Assembly (NCBI GenBank): GCA_035528375.1
Contig: DATKYS010000061.1
Location: 1-18,004, forward strand
Direction: 5' to 3'
Source: a bacterium
GTDB lineage: Bacteria; RBG-13-66-14
DNA: 18,004 bases
Below the pieces are notes generated by a model that did not search any database, had not been told where the DNA came from, and was given only the letters and a program-made list of their open reading frames with translations. The position numbers were made by a program, and so were the translations under genes. Shown here piece by piece: positions 375 to 13,995 of this stretch; positions within the stretch are counted from its first letter, which is position 1, and each line of letters starts with the position of its first letter.

Positions 375-3176
375 CTACCGGACCACGACCGCCCGGCGGG
401 TGAGAGACCCGCCCGCGGTCACCAGCCGGATCAGATACACGCCCACGCTGACGCCGGTGGTGTCCCAGGCGACGGTGTGGCGGCCGGCGGCCAGATCGCC
501 GTCGAAGAGGACGGCCACCCGCCGCCCGGCCAGGTCGTAAACCGCGAGGGTCACCTCGGAGCCGTCCTCCCCGCCCAGCTCGAACCGGATGGTCGCCGTA
601 TCCGAAACCGGGTTGGGGAAGGGCGTCGAGAGCGACGTGCGGTTCACCGTCGGCGTCCCACCCTCCACCTCCACCGGGCCCAGGAGCTCCCGGTTCCCGT
701 CTGCGTCCGTGACCTCGAAGACGTAGCTCTCACCACGGCCGCGGTCCAGGTAGTACCCGCGGTTCCCCGTGAGGGGCTGCTCGTTGAGCCGCGAACCGAG
801 ACCCGAGGACGACCGGGCGTCGCCCTGCCGGTAGATGTAGATGCCAGCCACGTCGCCGGTGATGTCCCAGCCCAACAGGGCGCCGTCGTCGGTGGAGCGG
901 GCGGAAAGGGCGGCGTCGCCCACGCCGACCTCGTAGTCCACGACGTAAATCTGGTCCGCGAAGGCGCCATCGTAGGTGTCGTCGGAGTCCGACTTGAACC
1001 GGAGCCGGAGCTGGGCTATCTCGCCCCGGTGCTCGGTGAGGTCGTTCGTGCGCTTGATCCAGTTGCCCAGCGTGCCCGACAGGGTGTGCAGGACGGTCCA
1101 GTCATCCTCCTCCGAGTAGCGAATCTCCACGTACAGGGCGTCCCGGCCGCCCTCGAGGTGGAACTTGCTCCACACGGTGAGGATGTAGTGCTCCGCGTCC
1201 ACGCGGAAGGGCAGGCTCACCAGTGAGCAGTCGAGGTTGGGCTCGTAGCCGCCGCCCACGTCGTTCGGGGTGAAGGAGTACCGCCCGTACACCGAGTCCT
1301 CGTCGGTCCGGCGCCAGGTGTTCTCCCCGTTGCTGGAGTAGCGCCAGAGCGGCTCGATGCCCGATTCGCAGTCCTCCCGCAGGCCGTAGCCGGGCACGAA
1401 GAGCTCGAACGCCTCCGCCAGGTCGTAGGGGTTGGTGGCGTGTACGTCGAGGTCGAGGGGGAGGCCCGCCGGCTCGGGACAGTCGGAGTCCACCTCGAGG
1501 GTGAACTCGGCGGAAGCCTCCTCGAAGGGGGCCAGGCTGCCCAGGGAGTCGTGGCCGTCGGTGACGGTCACGTCGTCGGAATCGGTGGAGAGGTCGGCGG
1601 TGACGCCGGTGGCGGTGACCAGGCTCATGTTGTATAGGCGGCAGTACACGGTGGCGGTCTCGCCGGGCTCCAGGACCCCGTCCGAGTCCTCGTCGGCGAC
1701 CTCGTAGCCGTCGAAGAGGAGGTGGAGCTCGGGGTCGGCGACGACGCTGGAGACACTGGCGAAGGCGTTGACACGCCCCGCGCCGTAGGTGTTGTCCTTG
1801 CCGGGGTCGCCCAGCTCGCGGGCGTAATGCTCCAGGGCGGCCTTGAGCTGGACGGGCGACAGGGCCGGGGCGGCGTCCAGGAGCAGCGACACCGTCCCCG
1901 CCGTGTGCGGGGTGGCCATGGAGGTGCCGTTCCAGCCCCAGATGTAGCCCTGGTCGTCTTCCCAGGAGCAGGAGACGATGTCCACGCCGGGGGCGCAGAC
2001 GTCGGGCTTGGTGAGGCAGGGGTAGTCGTGGTAGGGGGCCACGTCGGCCCAGCTCACCGGCCCGCGGCCGGAGAAGCCGGCGATTTCGTCGCTGACGTTG
2101 GTGGCGCCCACGGTGATGAGGCCGGGGACGTCGCCGGGACAGGTGATCGTCTGGGGGTCGGGCCCGTCGTTACCGCCGGCCACCACCAGTGCCAGTCCGC
2201 CGGCCAGGCAGTTCTCCGCCACGTCGCGCCAGGTGGCCCGGTCGGGGTCCCAACCGTAACTCCAGCCCAGGCTCACCGAGACGGCGTCCGCCCCGTTGTC
2301 CAGCGCGTACTGCCACGCCTCCCAGACCGAGGCCTCGCCCTGGGGGGTGGCCCACATCCAGACCTTGAGGCTCATTATCCGCGTCTTGGGCGCCACGCCG
2401 CAGCTCATGCCCGCCGCGCCGTCCGAGGACACCGAGCCGGCGCAGTGGGTGCCGTGGCCGTCGGTGTCCATGGGGTCCGGACCGCCGCCGCCCGCCCCGT
2501 CGAAGTAGTAGCCGAGGTAGTCGTCCACGTAGCCGTTGTGGTCGTCGTCCACGCCGTTGTCCGGAATCTCGTCGGTGTTGTGCCACAGGTGGTCGCGCAG
2601 ATCGTAGTGCTCGTAGTTGACGCCGGTGTCGGACACGGCGACCACGATGCCGTCGCCGTCGTAGCCGTAGTCGTCCCAGACGTATGGTGCGCCGATTTTC
2701 TCCACGCCCCAGGCCAGTCCGCCGTCGCGGTCCGACTCACCCACGCCGACCCACTCGTCGGGCCGGTCGGAGCCGGTCTCCACGCGCGCCACGTCGCCGC
2801 GCTCCAGAAGCTCGCGGATGACCGACGGCCTCGCCTCGCACACCACCAGGTTCGTGACCCAGAAAGCCCCGACGTACCCCACGTCGCCGAGGTTTCGCCG
2901 TCCTTCGAGGTAGGCCAGAAGGTCGCCCTGGGTGTCCGCCGCGATGTACTTGAGCCTTTCGATGACCGCCGCGCGGGCCGGCTCGGGGGGCAGCGTGGCG
3001 TTCAACTGCTGCAGCTCGGCCGGCGTCGCCTGTTCGGAGAGGGAGACGTTGACCCACAGGAGCTCGTCCTCGGCGAGGCCGGGTAGCCTGGCCTCCAGGT
3101 TGGGGCCGATCCGGGCCGCCGCGGCGCCGGTGACGAAAAGGGCCGCCACGAGTACGACAGACAGGCGTGCGCGCAT
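375..3176 (-). CDS. Secreted subtilisin-like (S8) serine protease with C-terminal FlgD/type-IX-like sorting domain
   Basis: This is predicted to be an exported endopeptidase that acts at or beyond the cell surface. Residues 1-21 form a signal peptide (Arg-rich start, hydrophobic core, AAA end), and about 22-155 look like a propeptide. The catalytic domain spans about 160-475 with the full subtilase triad: Asp183 in VSDTGV, His241 in DGHGTHCAG and Ser419 in NGTSMATPHTAG. The oxyanion Asn336 sits in AGGNDG. An Asp/Asn-rich loop at 205-220 probably binds calcium. Beta-rich regions follow, including DEDSDGVLEPGET near 495 and a jelly-roll-like stretch at about 600-755. Residues 851-933 match the FlgD-like/type IX sorting domain, with PFPNP, VYDLAGRRV and GVYLIRL. 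ATG at 3176 is preceded by AAGGACGG. The partner secretion machinery is not in the window, so the export route after Sec is inferred. Confidence 0.95.
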   Translation of the reverse strand: MRARLSVVLVAALFVTGAAAARIGPNLEARLPGLAEDELLWVNVSLSEQATPAELQQLNATLPPEPARAAVIERLKYIAADTQGDLLAYLEGRRNLGDVGYVGAFWVTNLVVCEARPSVIRELLERGDVARVETGSDRPDEWVGVGESDRDGGLAWGVEKIGAPYVWDDYGYDGDGIVVAVSDTGVNYEHYDLRDHLWHNTDEIPDNGVDDDHNGYVDDYLGYYFDGAGGGGPDPMDTDGHGTHCAGSVSSDGAAGMSCGVAPKTRIMSLKVWMWATPQGEASVWEAWQYALDNGADAVSVSLGWSYGWDPDRATWRDVAENCLAGGLALVVAGGNDGPDPQTITCPGDVPGLITVGATNVSDEIAGFSGRGPVSWADVAPYHDYPCLTKPDVCAPGVDIVSCSWEDDQGYIWGWNGTSMATPHTAGTVSLLLDAAPALSPVQLKAALEHYARELGDPGKDNTYGAGRVNAFASVSSVVADPELHLLFDGYEVADEDSDGVLEPGETATVYCRLYNMSLVTATGVTADLSTDSDDVTVTDGHDSLGSLAPFEEASAEFTLEVDSDCPEPAGLPLDLDVHATNPYDLAEAFELFVPGYGLREDCESGIEPLWRYSSNGENTWRRTDEDSVYGRYSFTPNDVGGGYEPNLDCSLVSLPFRVDAEHYILTVWSKFHLEGGRDALYVEIRYSEEDDWTVLHTLSGTLGNWIKRTNDLTEHRGEIAQLRLRFKSDSDDTYDGAFADQIYVVDYEVGVGDAALSARSTDDGALLGWDITGDVAGIYIYRQGDARSSSGLGSRLNEQPLTGNRGYYLDRGRGESYVFEVTDADGNRELLGPVEVEGGTPTVNRTSLSTPFPNPVSDTATIRFELGGEDGSEVTLAVYDLAGRRVAVLFDGDLAAGRHTVAWDTTGVSVGVYLIRLVTAGGSLTRRAVVVR

Positions 3177-6226: not shown

Positions 6227-6255
6227 TTGCCGCGGGGCGGGGCGTGTGCTAAAAT
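6227..6255 (+). promoter_or_regulatory. Predicted extended -10 promoter in front of tsaD
   Basis: TTGCCG (6227-6232) and TAAAAT (6250-6255) are 17 bp apart, and a TG one base before the -10 box makes an extended -10 element. It begins right after the permease stop codon and overlaps the GTG at 6246. The predicted transcript starts near 6262. Confidence 0.55.
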
Positions 6256-7307
6256 TCGCTCCTCCGAAGCGAGGTGGCGCGCTGCTGGTCCTGGGCCTGG
6301 AGACCTCGTGCGATGAAACGGCGGCCGCCGTCGTGGAGGACGGGCGCCGGGTTCTCTCCGACGTCGTCAGCTCCCAGGCCGCCTTCTTCTCCCGGTACGG
6401 CGGGGTGGTCCCCGAGCTGGCCGGGCGGAACCACGCGGCGAAGGTCCTGCCCGTGGTCCGTGAATCGTTGAGCCTGGCCGGGATCGCTTACGGCGACCTG
6501 GGCGGGGTGGCCGCCACCCACGGCCCGGGGCTCACCGGCGCGCTCCTGGTGGGGCTGAACTTCGGCAAGGCGCTGGCGGCGGGGCTGGGCGTACCCTTCG
6601 TCGGGGTGAACCACCTGGCGGCCCACCTCCAGGCGCCGCTTCTCGGGGAAGACCCGCCGGAGCCGCCCTTCGTGGGCCTTCTGGTCTCCGGCGGCCACAC
6701 GGCGCTCTACGAAGTTGGGCCGGGTAAGAAGGGGCGGGAGAGCCTGCTCCGCTTCAGGTTGTTGGGGGAAACCTTAGACGACGCCGCGGGCGAGGCCTAC
6801 GATAAAGTCGGGCGCCTTTTGGGCATACCCTACCCCGCGGGGGCGGTCCTCGACGAACTGGCGCGATCCTTCGACGGCGAGCCGGAGCCGTTCACCCGGC
6901 CGCTGCCCGAGGGACTGAACTTCAGCTTCTCCGGGCTCAAGACCGCCGCGGCGCGACGGGTGGCCGAGCTGGTCGGGGAGAGTCGGTTGGAGGAGCGGAG
7001 GTCGGCGGTGGCCGCCGGTTTTCAGGCGGCGGTCATCGAAATTCTCGCCGAAAAGGCGCTGGCCGCCTGCCGTGAGATTTCGCTGAATACTCTGGTCGTC
7101 GGTGGCGGGGTGGCGGCCAACCGGGGGCTGCGCGAAACGTTGTCCCGACGGGCCGAGGCCGAGGGTGTGGAGGTCCGCTTCGCCCCCCTGGAGTACGCGA
7201 TGGACAACGCGGCCATGGTGGCCGCCCGGGGGTATTTCCTCCTCGCCGCCGGCGTGACCAGCCCCCTGGAATTGGAAGCGGTGGCCTGCCTGGAACTGGG
7301 CGTGTGA
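6246..7307 (+). CDS. tsaD: tRNA N6-adenosine threonylcarbamoyltransferase
   Basis: TsaD transfers the threonylcarbamoyl group to adenosine 37 of ANN-decoding tRNAs (t6A), working with TsaB and TsaE in the cytoplasm. Counting from GTG 6246 (353 residues), the ASKHA-fold motifs are complete: GLETSCDETA (17-26), the metal-binding HLAAH (His123, His127), SGGHT (148-152), GEAYDKVGR (182-190), FSFSGLK (226-232), GGGVAANRGLR (286-296) and MDNAAM with Asp320. TsaD proteins normally begin just before LVLGxETSCDET, so the first 12 or so codons are probably not translated. A promoter covers the GTG, and GAGGTGG (6271-6277) precedes the in-frame CTG codons at 6282 and 6285, which may be the true start. 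The stop codon overlaps the next start (TGATG). Confidence 0.96.
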   Translation: MLKFAPPKRGGALLVLGLETSCDETAAAVVEDGRRVLSDVVSSQAAFFSRYGGVVPELAGRNHAAKVLPVVRESLSLAGIAYGDLGGVAATHGPGLTGALLVGLNFGKALAAGLGVPFVGVNHLAAHLQAPLLGEDPPEPPFVGLLVSGGHTALYEVGPGKKGRESLLRFRLLGETLDDAAGEAYDKVGRLLGIPYPAGAVLDELARSFDGEPEPFTRPLPEGLNFSFSGLKTAAARRVAELVGESRLEERRSAVAAGFQAAVIEILAEKALAACREISLNTLVVGGGVAANRGLRETLSRRAEAEGVEVRFAPLEYAMDNAAMVAARGYFLLAAGVTSPLELEAVACLELGV

Positions 7308-8104
7308 TGTTACGTGTGGCGTTCACTTTTTTAATGGTACTACCTTCGGTTCTGGTCGCCCGCACCTATCAGATACAGTACAGATGCGATGAATCGGATG
7401 CGCAACGGGTCAGGGAGATAGTTGATTCTCGGTTGGCTTTCATCGAGGCCGCCGTCGTTGATGAGTTTGACGACGACTTTGAAAATGTCCATCGGCAATC
7501 CATCAGTTTTGAAGCCCGCGATGACTTGTTCGGGTTGATTGGTCGTCTGTTCCATTTCCACGGGTCCTTGTCGCTCGTGCCGGTCGTTCCCGTAGGCGAT
7601 GCGGTGCCGGAAGTGGAGACATCACCCGGGGTTCAGGTCGTACCCGATGAAGCGGAGGATTGCTGGTTCATCGTAGGCGACGGAATGTACAGGATAATCC
7701 AGGATGGGGCTTATTGGAGGCTTGACCCGACGGAAGGCCGCGATGAGAGCTGGCGGAGACATTTTTATCTACTCGAAACCGAAGAGGCGTTGGGGTTGGA
7801 TGGGAAAATAGCACATGTAAATCCGGTAGATGACACCCCCGAGCCCTATCTTACCGTCAACCTACGCGATGAGTACGCCCCGGAGCTGGAAGACCTGACG
7901 GGGGATAACCTGGGACGGCGGCTGGCGCTTATTATTGACGATGATGAAGTCGTCACGACGATTGTCGTCAACGATGTCATAGGAAACGGTCAATTTAAAA
8001 TTGGGTTTCTCAGGGATGATATTGGAACCCTCCTGTTGGTTTGGCTTTCCGGCGAACTTTTACCGGGGAGTTACGATCTGTCCTCTGTAGGCGCAGATTA
8101 TTAA
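7307..8104 (+). CDS. SecD periplasmic-head-like protein without the membrane permease part
   Basis: A 265-residue protein of unknown role. Residues 1-19 form a signal peptide or membrane anchor. The rest follows the SecD periplasmic P1 head. Residues 31-98 (AQRVREIVDSRLAFIEAAVV, then LIGRL, then LSLVPV) parallel SecD's EIIRRRVDEFGVAEPEV, LIGERA and LEFMLV. Residues 181-255 (TGDNLGRRLALIIDDDEV, ending SGELLPGS) parallel SecD's TGTHVGNQLAIVLDDEV and NGALPVA. The six-helix export domain is absent. ATG 7307 overlaps the tsaD stop (TGATG); GTG 7304 is an alternative. secD follows after 97 bp. The gene is much less GC-rich than its neighbours: hand counts of two 60-base stretches give about 52% and 42%, against about 72% in secD. 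This suggests transfer or relaxed constraint. It may assist or modulate SecDF, but that is inference. Confidence 0.75.
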   Translation: MLRVAFTFLMVLPSVLVARTYQIQYRCDESDAQRVREIVDSRLAFIEAAVVDEFDDDFENVHRQSISFEARDDLFGLIGRLFHFHGSLSLVPVVPVGDAVPEVETSPGVQVVPDEAEDCWFIVGDGMYRIIQDGAYWRLDPTEGRDESWRRHFYLLETEEALGLDGKIAHVNPVDDTPEPYLTVNLRDEYAPELEDLTGDNLGRRLALIIDDDEVVTTIVVNDVIGNGQFKIGFLRDDIGTLLLVWLSGELLPGSYDLSSVGADY

Positions 8105-8201
8105 CCCTTTTCTCTTAATGCCTAGTGCCTCGATCCCCGGTCTTCGGTTTGAGGAACCGCGGTAACCCCCCAAGGTCGCCACTCACCCGCGAGGAGCGTA
8201 A

Positions 8202-9785
8202 ATGGCGAGAAAGCGCCGGTTTTACGGGCTCATCGGCTGGCTGGTCTTCGTCTTCGCCCTGGTCTTCGCCCTGCCGACCACCGGCCTCCTGGACGGCCTG
8301 TCCCCCGAGCTGACCCAGTGGCTGCCCGTGGAGAAGGTCAAGCTGGGCCTGGACCTCTCGGGCGGCATGGTGATGCGCTACGAGGCGGACATGACCAACG
8401 TGCCCCCCGGGGACGAGCAGGTCACCCTGGACACCGTCCTGGAGATCATCCGCCGCCGGGTGGACGAGTTCGGCGTGGCCGAGCCCGAGGTGGAGCAGAT
8501 AGGCGACGCGGGCATCACCGTCCGGCTGCCGGGCATCAGCGACACGGACCGGGCCAAGAATCTCATCGGGGAGCGGGCGGTGCTCGAGTTCATGCTGGTG
8601 GACGCCGAGGGCCGGCTGGGGAAGGTCCTGGCCAAGGCCGCGGGTTACCCCACCTACCGGACGATCCTCGCCAACGTCTACGACCTGGGGCACGGCATCT
8701 ACGCCCCCTCCTCCCTGAAGGAGGGGCTGGCGAAGATGGTCAACGACCGGGGCCTGGTCTCCGACTTCCCCGGCTACCGGCTGGCCCTCTCGGTGGAGCA
8801 GCGGCTGGACAAGGACTCCGCGGACTACGAGCAGGAGATAGCGCAGCGCCTGACCGAGGTGTACGGCTCCCCCGTGGAGGGCTACTTCCAGCTCTACCTC
8901 CTGGACGCCCGCCGCCCGATCAAGGGCTCCGACCTGACCGACGCCCAGTACACCCGCGAGCGCGAGCGGGGTCTGCCCGCCGTGAGCTTCTCCTTCAACT
9001 ACACCGGCGCCGAGTCCTTCCGGGAGGTCACCGGCACCCACGTGGGCAACCAATTGGCCATCGTCCTGGACGACGAGGTCATCTCGGCCCCGGTCATCGA
9101 GGAGGAGATTCCCGGCGAGGGCATCATCCGGGGCAACTTCACCGTGGACCGGGCCAAGGACCTGGCGATCAACCTGCGCAACGGGGCCCTGCCGGTGGCC
9201 CTGAACGTGGTCATGGAGGACACCATCGGGCCGAGCCTGGGCTCGGATTCGATCAAGTACGGGGTGACGGCTGCGCTCGTGGGCCTCCTTTTGGTGATGG
9301 GCTTCATGAGCTTCTGGTACCGCTTCTCCGGTGTGATCGCCGTGGTGGCCCTGCTCTTCAACATAGTCCTCATCATCGCCGCGCTGGCCATCTTCGGCGC
9401 CACCCTCACACTGCCCGGCATCGCCGGAATCATCCTCACCATCGGCATGAGCGTGGACGCCAACGTGCTCATCTTCGAGCGCATCCGTGAGGAGTTGCGC
9501 AAGGGCGAGCGGCTGGCCGAGTCGGGCGCGGTCAAGCCCGCGGTGGCGGTGGCCACGGCCATCAACGCCGGCTACGACAAGGCCTTCATCACCATCCTCG
9601 ACGCCAACATCACCACGCTCATCACCGCCGGGGTGCTCTACGTCCTGGGTACGGGTCCCATCCGCGGCTTCGCGGTCACGCTGGCCATCGGCATCGCGGC
9701 CAGCATGTTCACCGCGCTCATCGTGTCCCGGGCGATTTTCGATTACCGCGTGCGGCGCCGCCACCTGGAGAAGCTGTCCATCTAG
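8202..9785 (+). CDS. secD: Protein translocase subunit SecD
   Basis: SecD with SecF uses the proton gradient to pull proteins out of the SecYEG channel on the periplasmic side. The 527 residues show helix 1 (10-28), LGLDLSGG (48-55), the P1 head, and the family's TGTHVGNQLAIVLDDEVISA (277-296) with NGALPV (327-332). Five more helices follow from about 352 to 512, with GMSVDANVLIFERIR (415-429) holding the conserved Asp419 of the proton path. The head contains an extra stretch at about 132-230 between its two halves, longer than in compact SecD proteins. ATG 8202 has GAGGAG just upstream. The 97 bp before it hold a weak CGGTT/AACCG hairpin and no clear promoter. secF follows in the same direction. 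Confidence 0.97.
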   Translation: MARKRRFYGLIGWLVFVFALVFALPTTGLLDGLSPELTQWLPVEKVKLGLDLSGGMVMRYEADMTNVPPGDEQVTLDTVLEIIRRRVDEFGVAEPEVEQIGDAGITVRLPGISDTDRAKNLIGERAVLEFMLVDAEGRLGKVLAKAAGYPTYRTILANVYDLGHGIYAPSSLKEGLAKMVNDRGLVSDFPGYRLALSVEQRLDKDSADYEQEIAQRLTEVYGSPVEGYFQLYLLDARRPIKGSDLTDAQYTRERERGLPAVSFSFNYTGAESFREVTGTHVGNQLAIVLDDEVISAPVIEEEIPGEGIIRGNFTVDRAKDLAINLRNGALPVALNVVMEDTIGPSLGSDSIKYGVTAALVGLLLVMGFMSFWYRFSGVIAVVALLFNIVLIIAALAIFGATLTLPGIAGIILTIGMSVDANVLIFERIREELRKGERLAESGAVKPAVAVATAINAGYDKAFITILDANITTLITAGVLYVLGTGPIRGFAVTLAIGIAASMFTALIVSRAIFDYRVRRRHLEKLSI

Positions 9786-11305: not shown

Positions 11306-12403
11306 ATGGAAGTCTTCAGGAACCTGGAAACGGCGGATCACGAGCAGGTGGCCTTCTGCGTGGCGCCCGCCGCCGAGCTACGGGCGATCATCGTCATCCA
11401 CGACACCACCCTGGGGCCGGCCATCGCCGGCATCCGCACCCTGGACTACCCCGACGAGGAGGCGGCCCTCACGGACGCCCTCCACCTCTCGCGGGGGCTC
11501 ACGTACAAGAGCGCCACCGCCGGGCTGAACTACGGCGGGGGTCAGATCAACATCCTGCGCCAGTCCGTGGGGGGGAAGCGGGAGCCCGCCTTCCGGGCCC
11601 TGGGGCGCTTCATCCAGGGGCTGGGCGGGCGGATAATCGGCGCCCCCGACGTCGGCACCGGCGCCTTGGATCTCACCTACGTGGCCACCGAGACCGAGTT
11701 CGTCGCCGGCGTCACCCTCTTCGAGGGCTCATTCGATCCGAGCCTGGTGACCGCCTCGGGCGTGATGATGGGCATCGGGGTCTGTCTGGCCGAGACGGGC
11801 CGGGGGAAGGACCTGGCCGGGAAGACCGTGGCGCTTCAGGGGGTGGGCGCCGTGGGCACCCTCCTCGCCGGCAAGTTCCTCGAGGCCGGGGCGAGGGTCC
11901 TGGTCCACGACCACAGCCCGGAGCGGCTGGAGAAGATTCTCAAGCGGATGCCCTCTCTGGTCCCCCGGGAGGTCGAGGGGCTCCTGGACGATTCGGTGGA
12001 CGTGTTCTGCCCCTGCGGTCGGGGGGGCGTCGTCGGCCCCGAGACCCTGGAGTCGCTGGCCGGCAAGATAGTCTGCGGCGCGGCGAACTCCCAGCTCGAC
12101 CCCACCTGGGACGATTACTCCCAGCTCGCCAAGCGGGGAATCACCTACGCCCCGGACATCGTGGTCAACTCCGGCGGGCTCATCAGCGTCGTCGGGGAGC
12201 TGGAGAATCACCCCGACCAGTGGGTCTTCGCCAAGATGAGACAGATCCCGGACCTCCTCCGGGAGGTCTTCGCCCTGGCCTCCGAGGATGGCATCTCCAC
12301 CGTGGAGGCGGCGATGCGGCTGGGCGAGCGCAGGATCAAAGCCATCGCGTCCCTGGCGCACAGCTACGTGCCGCGCAAGGGGAAGGGGGTGGGGCTTCCT
12401 TGA
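11306..12403 (+). CDS. Leucine/valine/phenylalanine dehydrogenase-family protein with altered catalytic lysine
   Basis: Family members reversibly deaminate branched-chain or aromatic amino acids to 2-oxo acids with NAD. The 365 residues match the short leucine dehydrogenase type, and key positions keep the numbering known for Bacillus leucine dehydrogenase: Lys68 in RGLTYKSATAG and Asp115 in APDVGT. The NAD fold includes ALQGVGAVG (about residue 175), and INSGG-like VVNSGGLISV lies near 290. The catalytic Lys80 of the GGGK motif is Gln here (GGGQ, codon CAG at 11543-11545), so the usual chemistry is in doubt. ATG 11306 with GGGGGTG before it is preferred to GTG 11300. The stop overlaps the next gene's TTG. 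The nearby ptb supports a branched-chain catabolic setting. Confidence 0.9.
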   Translation: MEVFRNLETADHEQVAFCVAPAAELRAIIVIHDTTLGPAIAGIRTLDYPDEEAALTDALHLSRGLTYKSATAGLNYGGGQINILRQSVGGKREPAFRALGRFIQGLGGRIIGAPDVGTGALDLTYVATETEFVAGVTLFEGSFDPSLVTASGVMMGIGVCLAETGRGKDLAGKTVALQGVGAVGTLLAGKFLEAGARVLVHDHSPERLEKILKRMPSLVPREVEGLLDDSVDVFCPCGRGGVVGPETLESLAGKIVCGAANSQLDPTWDDYSQLAKRGITYAPDIVVNSGGLISVVGELENHPDQWVFAKMRQIPDLLREVFALASEDGISTVEAAMRLGERRIKAIASLAHSYVPRKGKGVGLP

Positions 12404-13995
12404 CCGACTGGACCAACAAGCTCTTTTTCGGGGACAACCTGGACGTCATGCGGCGGCACATCGGCGACGAGTCGGTGGACCTCGTCTACCTCGATCCGCC
12501 CTTCAACTCCAAGGCCGATTACAACGTGCTGTTCAAGGAGGTGGACGGGACGCCGTCGGCGTCGCAGTTCCAGGCGTTCACCGATTTCTGGCACTGGGAC
12601 GAGAACTCCGCCCGGGCGTACCACGAGCTGGTCACGGGGGATAAGGCGCCCCCGGCGCTCGTTGATTTATTGCAGGGCTTCGAAAGGTTCCTGGGGCACA
12701 ACGACATGTTCGCGTACCTGGTGATGATGGCGCCGAGGCTGGTGGAGCTGCGGCGGGTGCTGAAACCCACGGGGAGCATCTACCTCCACTGCGACCCCAA
12801 TGCTAGTCACTATTTGAAGCTAGTTATGGATGCGGTGTTCGGATCGAAAAATTTTATAAATGAAATATGTTGGAAAAGAACAACTTCAAGTAGCAGTAAG
12901 AAGGTTGCAAATCGGTATGGTAGCGATCACGATATTATTTATTTCTACTCTAAGGTAAGCAACTTTGTTTTTAATCAGAACTATATCCCATATTCAAATG
13001 AGTATATAAAAGAGAGATTCAATCAGGAAGATAAAAAAGGACTTTATAAAGATGCACAATTAAAAACCTATTCGAAAGATAAATTAGAGCAATTACGTCA
13101 AGAAGGTAAATTAATAGTTACTTCAGGAGGTAAGTACCGATATAAAATGTACTTAGAGGAGGCCCCCGGAGTGCCGGTTGATGATGTTTGGGTTGATATA
13201 TTTCCTGTTAATGCCGTTGCACGGGAACGCCTCGGTTATCAAACTCAAAAGCCCCAGGCGCTGCTAGAGCGAATTATAAACGTCTCCTCTAACGAGGGCG
13301 ACGTGGTGCTCGACCCCTTCTGCGGCTGCGGCACCACCATCGCCGCCGCCCAGGCCCTCGACCGCCGCTGGATCGGCATTGATATAACCTACCTGGCGAT
13401 TAACCTGATAAAGAGCCGCCTCGCGGATCACTTCGGGGAGGAAGCAACCTACGAGGTCCACGGCGAGCCGCGCGACTGGGACTCGGCCCGCGAGCTGGCC
13501 CAGCGCACGGACATGCCGCGCAAGGAGTTCGAGCTTTGGGCCCTGTCTTTGGTCCACGCCCGCCCCCTCGGCGACCCGGAGAAGAAGGGCGGCGGCGACC
13601 GAGGCATTGACGGCGTCCTCTTCTTCCGCGACGGCAAGACCGAAAAAACCCTGACGACGCGGAAAATCATCGTCCAGGTCAAGAGCGACTTGAAGCCGAA
13701 GGTGAGCCACGTGCGCGACCTGCGCGGCGTGATGGAGCGGGAGAAGGCGGACTTCGGCGCGCTTATCTTGCTGTACCGGGCGGGGGAGCGGTCGGAGATT
13801 CACCGCGAGGCCGCCGGGGCGGGGTTTTATCACAGCGAATTGATGCAGCGCGACTACCCGAGGATTCAGGTGCTGCAGGTGGACGCCCTCTTGGAGGGGC
13901 GGAGCAGGCTGGATTACCCTCTGGTCGGGCGGCTGGACCTCCTGCGCCACGCGGGGAAAATCGGAAAATCGGGCGGGCAGTTGAAGCTGGAATGA
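12400..13995 (+). CDS. Fused DNA methyltransferase and Mrr-type restriction endonuclease
   Basis: A single-chain restriction-modification protein of 531 residues. Residues 1-345 are an N6-adenine/N4-cytosine methyltransferase of the beta order: DPPF (32-35) first, a target-recognition region (about 134-290), then QTQKPQALLERII (281-293) and the AdoMet motif DPFCGCGTT (305-313). Residues 375-500 form a PD-(D/E)xK nuclease of the Mrr_cat type, with GGGDRGIDG (Asp404) and QVK (Lys428). It should cleave unmodified DNA at the site its own methyltransferase protects. The start is TTG 12400, overlapping the previous stop (TTGA), after a G-rich ribosome binding region. The recognition region (about 12800-13280) is strikingly AT-rich and seems to have been swapped in. 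The frame is open upstream to 12220, but that part lies inside the dehydrogenase gene. Confidence 0.92.
   Translation: MTDWTNKLFFGDNLDVMRRHIGDESVDLVYLDPPFNSKADYNVLFKEVDGTPSASQFQAFTDFWHWDENSARAYHELVTGDKAPPALVDLLQGFERFLGHNDMFAYLVMMAPRLVELRRVLKPTGSIYLHCDPNASHYLKLVMDAVFGSKNFINEICWKRTTSSSSKKVANRYGSDHDIIYFYSKVSNFVFNQNYIPYSNEYIKERFNQEDKKGLYKDAQLKTYSKDKLEQLRQEGKLIVTSGGKYRYKMYLEEAPGVPVDDVWVDIFPVNAVARERLGYQTQKPQALLERIINVSSNEGDVVLDPFCGCGTTIAAAQALDRRWIGIDITYLAINLIKSRLADHFGEEATYEVHGEPRDWDSARELAQRTDMPRKEFELWALSLVHARPLGDPEKKGGGDRGIDGVLFFRDGKTEKTLTTRKIIVQVKSDLKPKVSHVRDLRGVMEREKADFGALILLYRAGERSEIHREAAGAGFYHSELMQRDYPRIQVLQVDALLEGRSRLDYPLVGRLDLLRHAGKIGKSGGQLKLE

Follow-up and report, generated by a model that had tools for sequence, protein, structure and literature searches.

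A free SecD P1 domain encoded beside secD suggests an undescribed addition to the general export machine in Coatesbacteria and relatives

Introduction

What might a SecD P1 domain do when it is encoded as a separate exported protein right in front of secD? Proton-driven movement of the P1 domain is the presumed means by which SecDF pulls exported chains. This domain binds the chain emerging from SecYEG, and its movement is coupled to proton flow (PMC7793623, PMC11470409). It also contacts PpiD (PMC7793623), and SurA is probably contacted, or proposed to be recruited, by the P1 domain of SecD (PMC9987972). The question is raised by a gene for a 265-residue protein in an 18,004-nucleotide stretch of bacterial DNA (assembly GCA_035528375.1, contig DATKYS010000061.1), the whole of which is called the window. 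A preliminary description, made from the letters alone, had read its product as a stand-alone SecD head in two halves. The gene and its counterparts in other genomes are referred to here as solo P1.

The solo P1 locus

The genes and borders around solo P1 are as follows.

6246-7307, + strand: gene upstream of solo P1, named tsaD from its sequence family; its stop codon and the start of solo P1 overlap
7307-8104, + strand: solo P1 gene, for a 265-aa protein with a predicted signal peptide and a full SecD P1 domain but no membrane helices
8105-8201, + strand: spacer of 97 nt between solo P1 and secD, with a Shine-Dalgarno-like GAGGAG at 8191-8196
8202-9785, + strand: secD, full length, 527 aa
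9897-11288, + strand: secF

All four genes lie on the + strand of the window. The overlap with tsaD and the 97 bp before secD, both part of the preliminary description, are borne out by the coordinates: the tsaD stop and the solo P1 ATG share the letters TGATG, and the secD ATG stands at 8202. Solo P1 and secD probably belong to the same operon. The GC content of solo P1 is 52.7% (GC3 0.58) against 70.6% (0.87) for tsaD and 67.4% (0.96) for secD, so that the much lower GC noticed earlier is real; however, it is a feature of the window's genus only, as two other genera of the family have copies with 68-69% GC. A foreign gene need not be invoked to explain it, given these same-site copies in sister genera and a synonymous distance between the window's genome (G000) and its congener G003 of 0.77 for solo P1, near the 0.64 of tsaD. 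These distances are consistent with vertical descent.

Elsewhere in the window, SecF carries a helix-hairpin-helix match (HHH_3, E 1.4e-7) at residues 93-136, in its periplasmic domain, and HHH-like stretches are also seen by eye in SecF of G001, G005, and G007. A large subtilisin-like secreted protease is encoded at 375-3176 on the - strand, and on inspection its C-terminal end resembles a type IX secretion tail. A single frame at 12397-13992 joins a DNA methylase to an Mrr-like restriction domain; its middle part has 38% GC and it is probably foreign.

Sequence evidence for descent from SecD

The Pfam family SecDF_P1_head (PF22599) matches the window protein with E 3.6e-6 and 27.3 bits, just over the curated cut-off of 27, and NCBIfam gives SecD matches below threshold only. 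Direct comparison with the SecD of the window by blastp yields E 1e-4 at 22% identity, and a profile built from nine solo P1 proteins of the phylum matches the P1 chain of Thermus SecDF (3aqo) with E 5e-21. The stretches TGDNLGRRLALIIDDDEV and TGTHVGNQLAIVLDDEV, quoted earlier for their likeness to the adjacent SecD, are present as given, and the match of the protein to SecD goes beyond chance by Pfam, blastp, and profile alike. SecDF_P1_head is matched in all nine solo copies (E up to 0.1); SecD_1st (PF21760), the N-terminal base of P1, is matched in five of the nine, the window protein not among them. Judged from these matches, the product of 7307-8104 is SecD-derived.

The solo copies all lack the GLDLxGG motif (Sec_GG) of SecD, and the SAP motif is replaced, so peptide binding by solo P1 may have been lost. 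The window protein has no match to PF02355 (SecD_SecF_C).

Domain layout and predicted fold

The layout of the window protein is given below.

7307-7360, + strand: predicted signal peptide MLRVAFTFLMVLPSVLVA, likely cut after A18, with no lipobox cysteine (inspection and hydropathy)
7361-7588, + strand: N-terminal part of the P1 base, residues 19-94, strand-helix-strand-strand-helix-strand, without GLDLxGG (model, VIA alignment, and sequence alignment)
7589-8008, + strand: P1 head, residues 95-234, with the Pfam match at residues 165-232 (7799-8002) (model and Pfam)
8009-8101, + strand: closing helix and strand of the P1 base, residues 235-265, absent from the truncated G003 congener (model)

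Hydropathy of the window protein peaks at the N-terminus (15-residue maximum 2.41) and reaches a 19-residue maximum of 1.19 beyond residue 30. The solo P1 proteins of relatives likewise start with signal-like sequences, and inspection and hydropathy reveal neither a lipobox nor a second strongly hydrophobic segment in any of them. Together with the missing PF02355 match, this upholds the earlier picture of a 265-residue signal-peptide protein with none of the six membrane helices.

The structure was predicted with AlphaFold2 from an alignment of the nine solo proteins of the phylum, with SecD left out. The resulting model is of moderate confidence (pLDDT 63, pTM 0.57), with residues 98-152 of the head poorly modelled; it shows, in order, the signal helix, a ferredoxin-like base, the head, and the helix and strand that close the base. 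When it was searched against the PDB with Foldseek, the top nine matches were all to SecDF, and the first of them was the isolated Thermus P1 (3aqo_C, E 7.4e-10). In the VIA alignment, model range 19-264 superposes on 3aqo_C with Z 16.8 over 203 of 222 residues (rmsd 3.9), whereas among unrelated chains the highest score is Z 11.2, over just 82 residues, in keeping with the base alone. A second model, for a solo copy of another family, is globally poorer (pTM 0.49), and only SecDF is found for it at E < 1e-3 in Foldseek. On the strength of the SecDF matches and the 203/222 coverage, the window protein is modelled as a complete P1 domain with both base and head, and not as a head alone. The head derived from SecD that had been proposed is thus there, but the two halves belong to a full P1 that includes the base.

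Distribution in the phylum

A profile search found solo P1 in 9 of 14 genomes of the phylum, in three families, and in each of the nine it lies directly before secD, coding for 265-325 aa. The upstream gene, named from sequence, differs between the families: tsaD in f1 (G000, G003, G004, and G006), a branched-chain amino-acid permease in f3 (G008, G010, G011, and G013; 22-24 nt to secD), and pgpA in f5 (G012; 63 nt to secD). Solo P1 adjoins secD even in the f3 and f5 genomes, where secF is found at another place in the genome or on a different contig.

The gene is absent from the other five phylum genomes (G001, G002, G005, G007, and G009). In G001, G005, and G007 only about 105-180 nt separate secD from the upstream gene, too little to hold it, and an unrelated gene with a Por_Secre_tail domain precedes secD in G009. 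The G003 copy stops 31 residues early, with an 11-bp duplication after the stop. Solo P1 is therefore dispensable or optional, given its five absences and one truncation. All the same, relatives do keep it beside secD, and with the profile match and the SecD-like fold this means that the gene shows none of the failings feared for it at the outset, namely a missing match, a different fold, or absence or breakage throughout its relatives.

Two further observations concern these genomes. Candidatus Coatesbacteria RBG_13_66_14 (G002), a close relative of the window's genome (SecD identity 93%), carries at the exact solo P1 site (L035:3518-4849) an unrelated gene of 33% GC, whose 443-aa product has a Schlafen AlbA_2 domain; the flanks are 92-94% identical to the window, and the tsaD-secD interval may be an insertion hot spot. 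Additionally, frames of 76 and 80 aa (G013:C1:299982-300089 and G011:C48:51547-51648) are 64-65% identical to the last helix region of SecD (residues 485-520), and the one in G013 follows secD at a distance of about 1.1 kb and is flanked by two similar secreted proteins.

Selection and origin

Between G000 and G003, dN/dS of solo P1 is 0.22 (bootstrap 0.14-0.33), near the 0.20 of tsaD, which indicates that the gene in the window's genus is under purifying selection, in answer to the substitution check proposed in the preliminary description. For the other two intact f1 copies (G004 and G006) the value is 0.62, from a weak alignment. In a tree, the f1 copies form one clade and the f3 and f5 copies another (support 100 each), on branches several times longer than those of SecD. 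The AU test neither supports nor rejects a single origin of the f1 and f3/f5 groups (all p > 0.4), and the profile match between the groups cannot settle a common origin because both derive from SecD. Our best guess is that the 5' part of secD was duplicated, that its first helix became a signal peptide, and that the copy then diverged fast.

Outside the phylum

A PF22599 search of 276 genomes outside the phylum found no solo P1 adjacent to secD; a second match occurs in 13 of them, none being a short frame beside secD, and an ORF scan of 120 loci agrees. SecDF_P1_head proteins without the rest of SecD do occur scattered elsewhere (e.g. L064, L070, L071, L073, L074, and L076). Like solo P1, they carry the head outside SecD, often after a signal or lipoprotein-like N-terminus; unlike it, they lie away from secD, have different N-terminal parts, and score much lower with the solo P1 profile.

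Discussion

Solo P1 has the base-plus-head fold and the SecDF_P1_head family in common with the P1 domain of Thermus SecDF (PDB 3aqo, 3aqp, 5xam, and 5yhf). Unlike SecDF, it stands alone as a protein with a signal peptide of its own and lacks the six membrane helices, GLDLxGG, the proton pathway, and attachment to the motor. PpiD/YfgM and SurA are periplasmic helpers at the Sec exit for which contact with the SecD P1 head is reported or proposed (PMC7793623, PMC9987972); their folds are unrelated to that of solo P1. A role for solo P1 as a substitute for missing parvulin chaperones was rejected, as parvulin-domain proteins are present in 14 of 14 phylum genomes, with or without solo P1.

At roughly even odds (about 0.5), we regard solo P1 as a soluble periplasmic P1 acting in trans at the Sec exit, an optional accessory that either holds chains passively, as a ratchet or holdase, or modulates SecDF. 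The protein would be exported via Sec and then remain in the periplasm near the translocon, where, by analogy with the SecD P1 head, it would bind the chains as they exit SecYEG, or else P1's partners. Without membrane helices it could not pull by proton force, so its action would be that of a passive ratchet or holdase, or of a tuner of SecDF; the loss of the gene in relatives makes the accessory optional. A role at Sec is supported by the linkage to secD, and to secD only, kept in nine of nine cases and three families although the upstream genes differ. Against it count the changed SecD motifs, the fast divergence, the patchiness, the moderate confidence of the model, and the dN/dS of 0.62 for G004 and G006.

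The same linkage bears on the idea that the P1 fold now serves an exported function with no tie to Sec, with the place beside secD reflecting descent by tandem duplication only. Head-domain proteins away from secD in other phyla, some of them lipoprotein-like, and the fast divergence of solo P1 would agree with such reuse, but adjacency in all nine cases, despite changed upstream genes and, in f3 and f5, a secF located elsewhere, makes it unlikely. Slightly less likely again is a negative regulator or decoy, in which free P1 would compete with the P1 of SecD for substrate or partner chaperones and damp SecDF. Such a competitor would have the same fold and a probable operon with secD, would lack the motor part, and could owe non-productive binding to its altered head motifs. 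However, linkage to secD fits helper and competitor alike, and the anatomy is equally compatible with both roles.

A decaying duplicate without function is improbable. The gene is missing from G001, G002, G005, G007, and G009, the G003 copy is cut short by a stop followed by the 11-bp duplication, and GC is atypical in this genus; because of the truncated congener copy and the five absences, the earlier suggestion of a diverging duplicate stays partly alive. Yet eight intact copies persist across great divergence, dN/dS is 0.22, and signal peptide, fold, and linkage to secD are retained.

Least probable of all, and less likely than an accessory in trans, is a secretion monitor whose export-sensitive translation arrest tunes secD, as with VemP, ApdA, and ApdP before secDF. 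The arrest peptides VemP, ApdA, ApdP, and uDF are, like solo P1, exported proteins encoded directly before secD or secDF, and a signal peptide and a site before secD agree with published search criteria (PMC10987492, PMC7897499). Moreover, the f3 copies have a conserved C-terminal tail rich in proline (SRPIPQPSK-like), and proline is the last residue of the f5 copy. Unlike solo P1, however, these peptides are short, finish with a conserved motif, lack a folded SecD domain, and act by translation arrest (PMC7897499, PMC10987492); those tested have 108-140 aa and no annotated function (PMC7897499), against a folded domain of 265-325 aa conserved over its full length, so that solo P1 is not small and unannotated. 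A RAPP-like motif is absent, the families share no C-terminal motif, their C-termini being alike within f3 only, and no second SecDF was found, whereas VemP, ApdA, and ApdP precede a second SecDF copy (PMC7897499, PMC10987492). A hairpin hiding the start of secD was likewise rejected, as no consistent stem-loop over its Shine-Dalgarno site was seen.

The preliminary description knew of no system built this way. For a full P1 beside secD this stands within the searchable literature, since no published description of a secD-linked free P1 was found in open-licence sources; for P1_head domains outside SecD it does not, as these occur elsewhere. Thus the P1 fold and PF22599 domains outside SecD are known, and what is new is a whole P1 as a separate signal-peptide protein, linked to secD across a phylum. 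Somewhat more tentatively than the accessory role itself, a detached, diffusible P1 across the phylum may serve as an additional passive grip on chains under export, or as a regulator of SecDF, and would then be a soluble subunit of the Sec holo-translocon. The secD-adjacent P1 gene in Coatesbacteria and relatives suggests that the general export machine has an add-on not yet described. A natural P1 without its motor separates binding from pulling. If solo P1 aids or damps export, it would offer a direct test of how much holding contributes to the work of SecDF, and would represent a new type of subunit at the Sec exit in a little-studied phylum.
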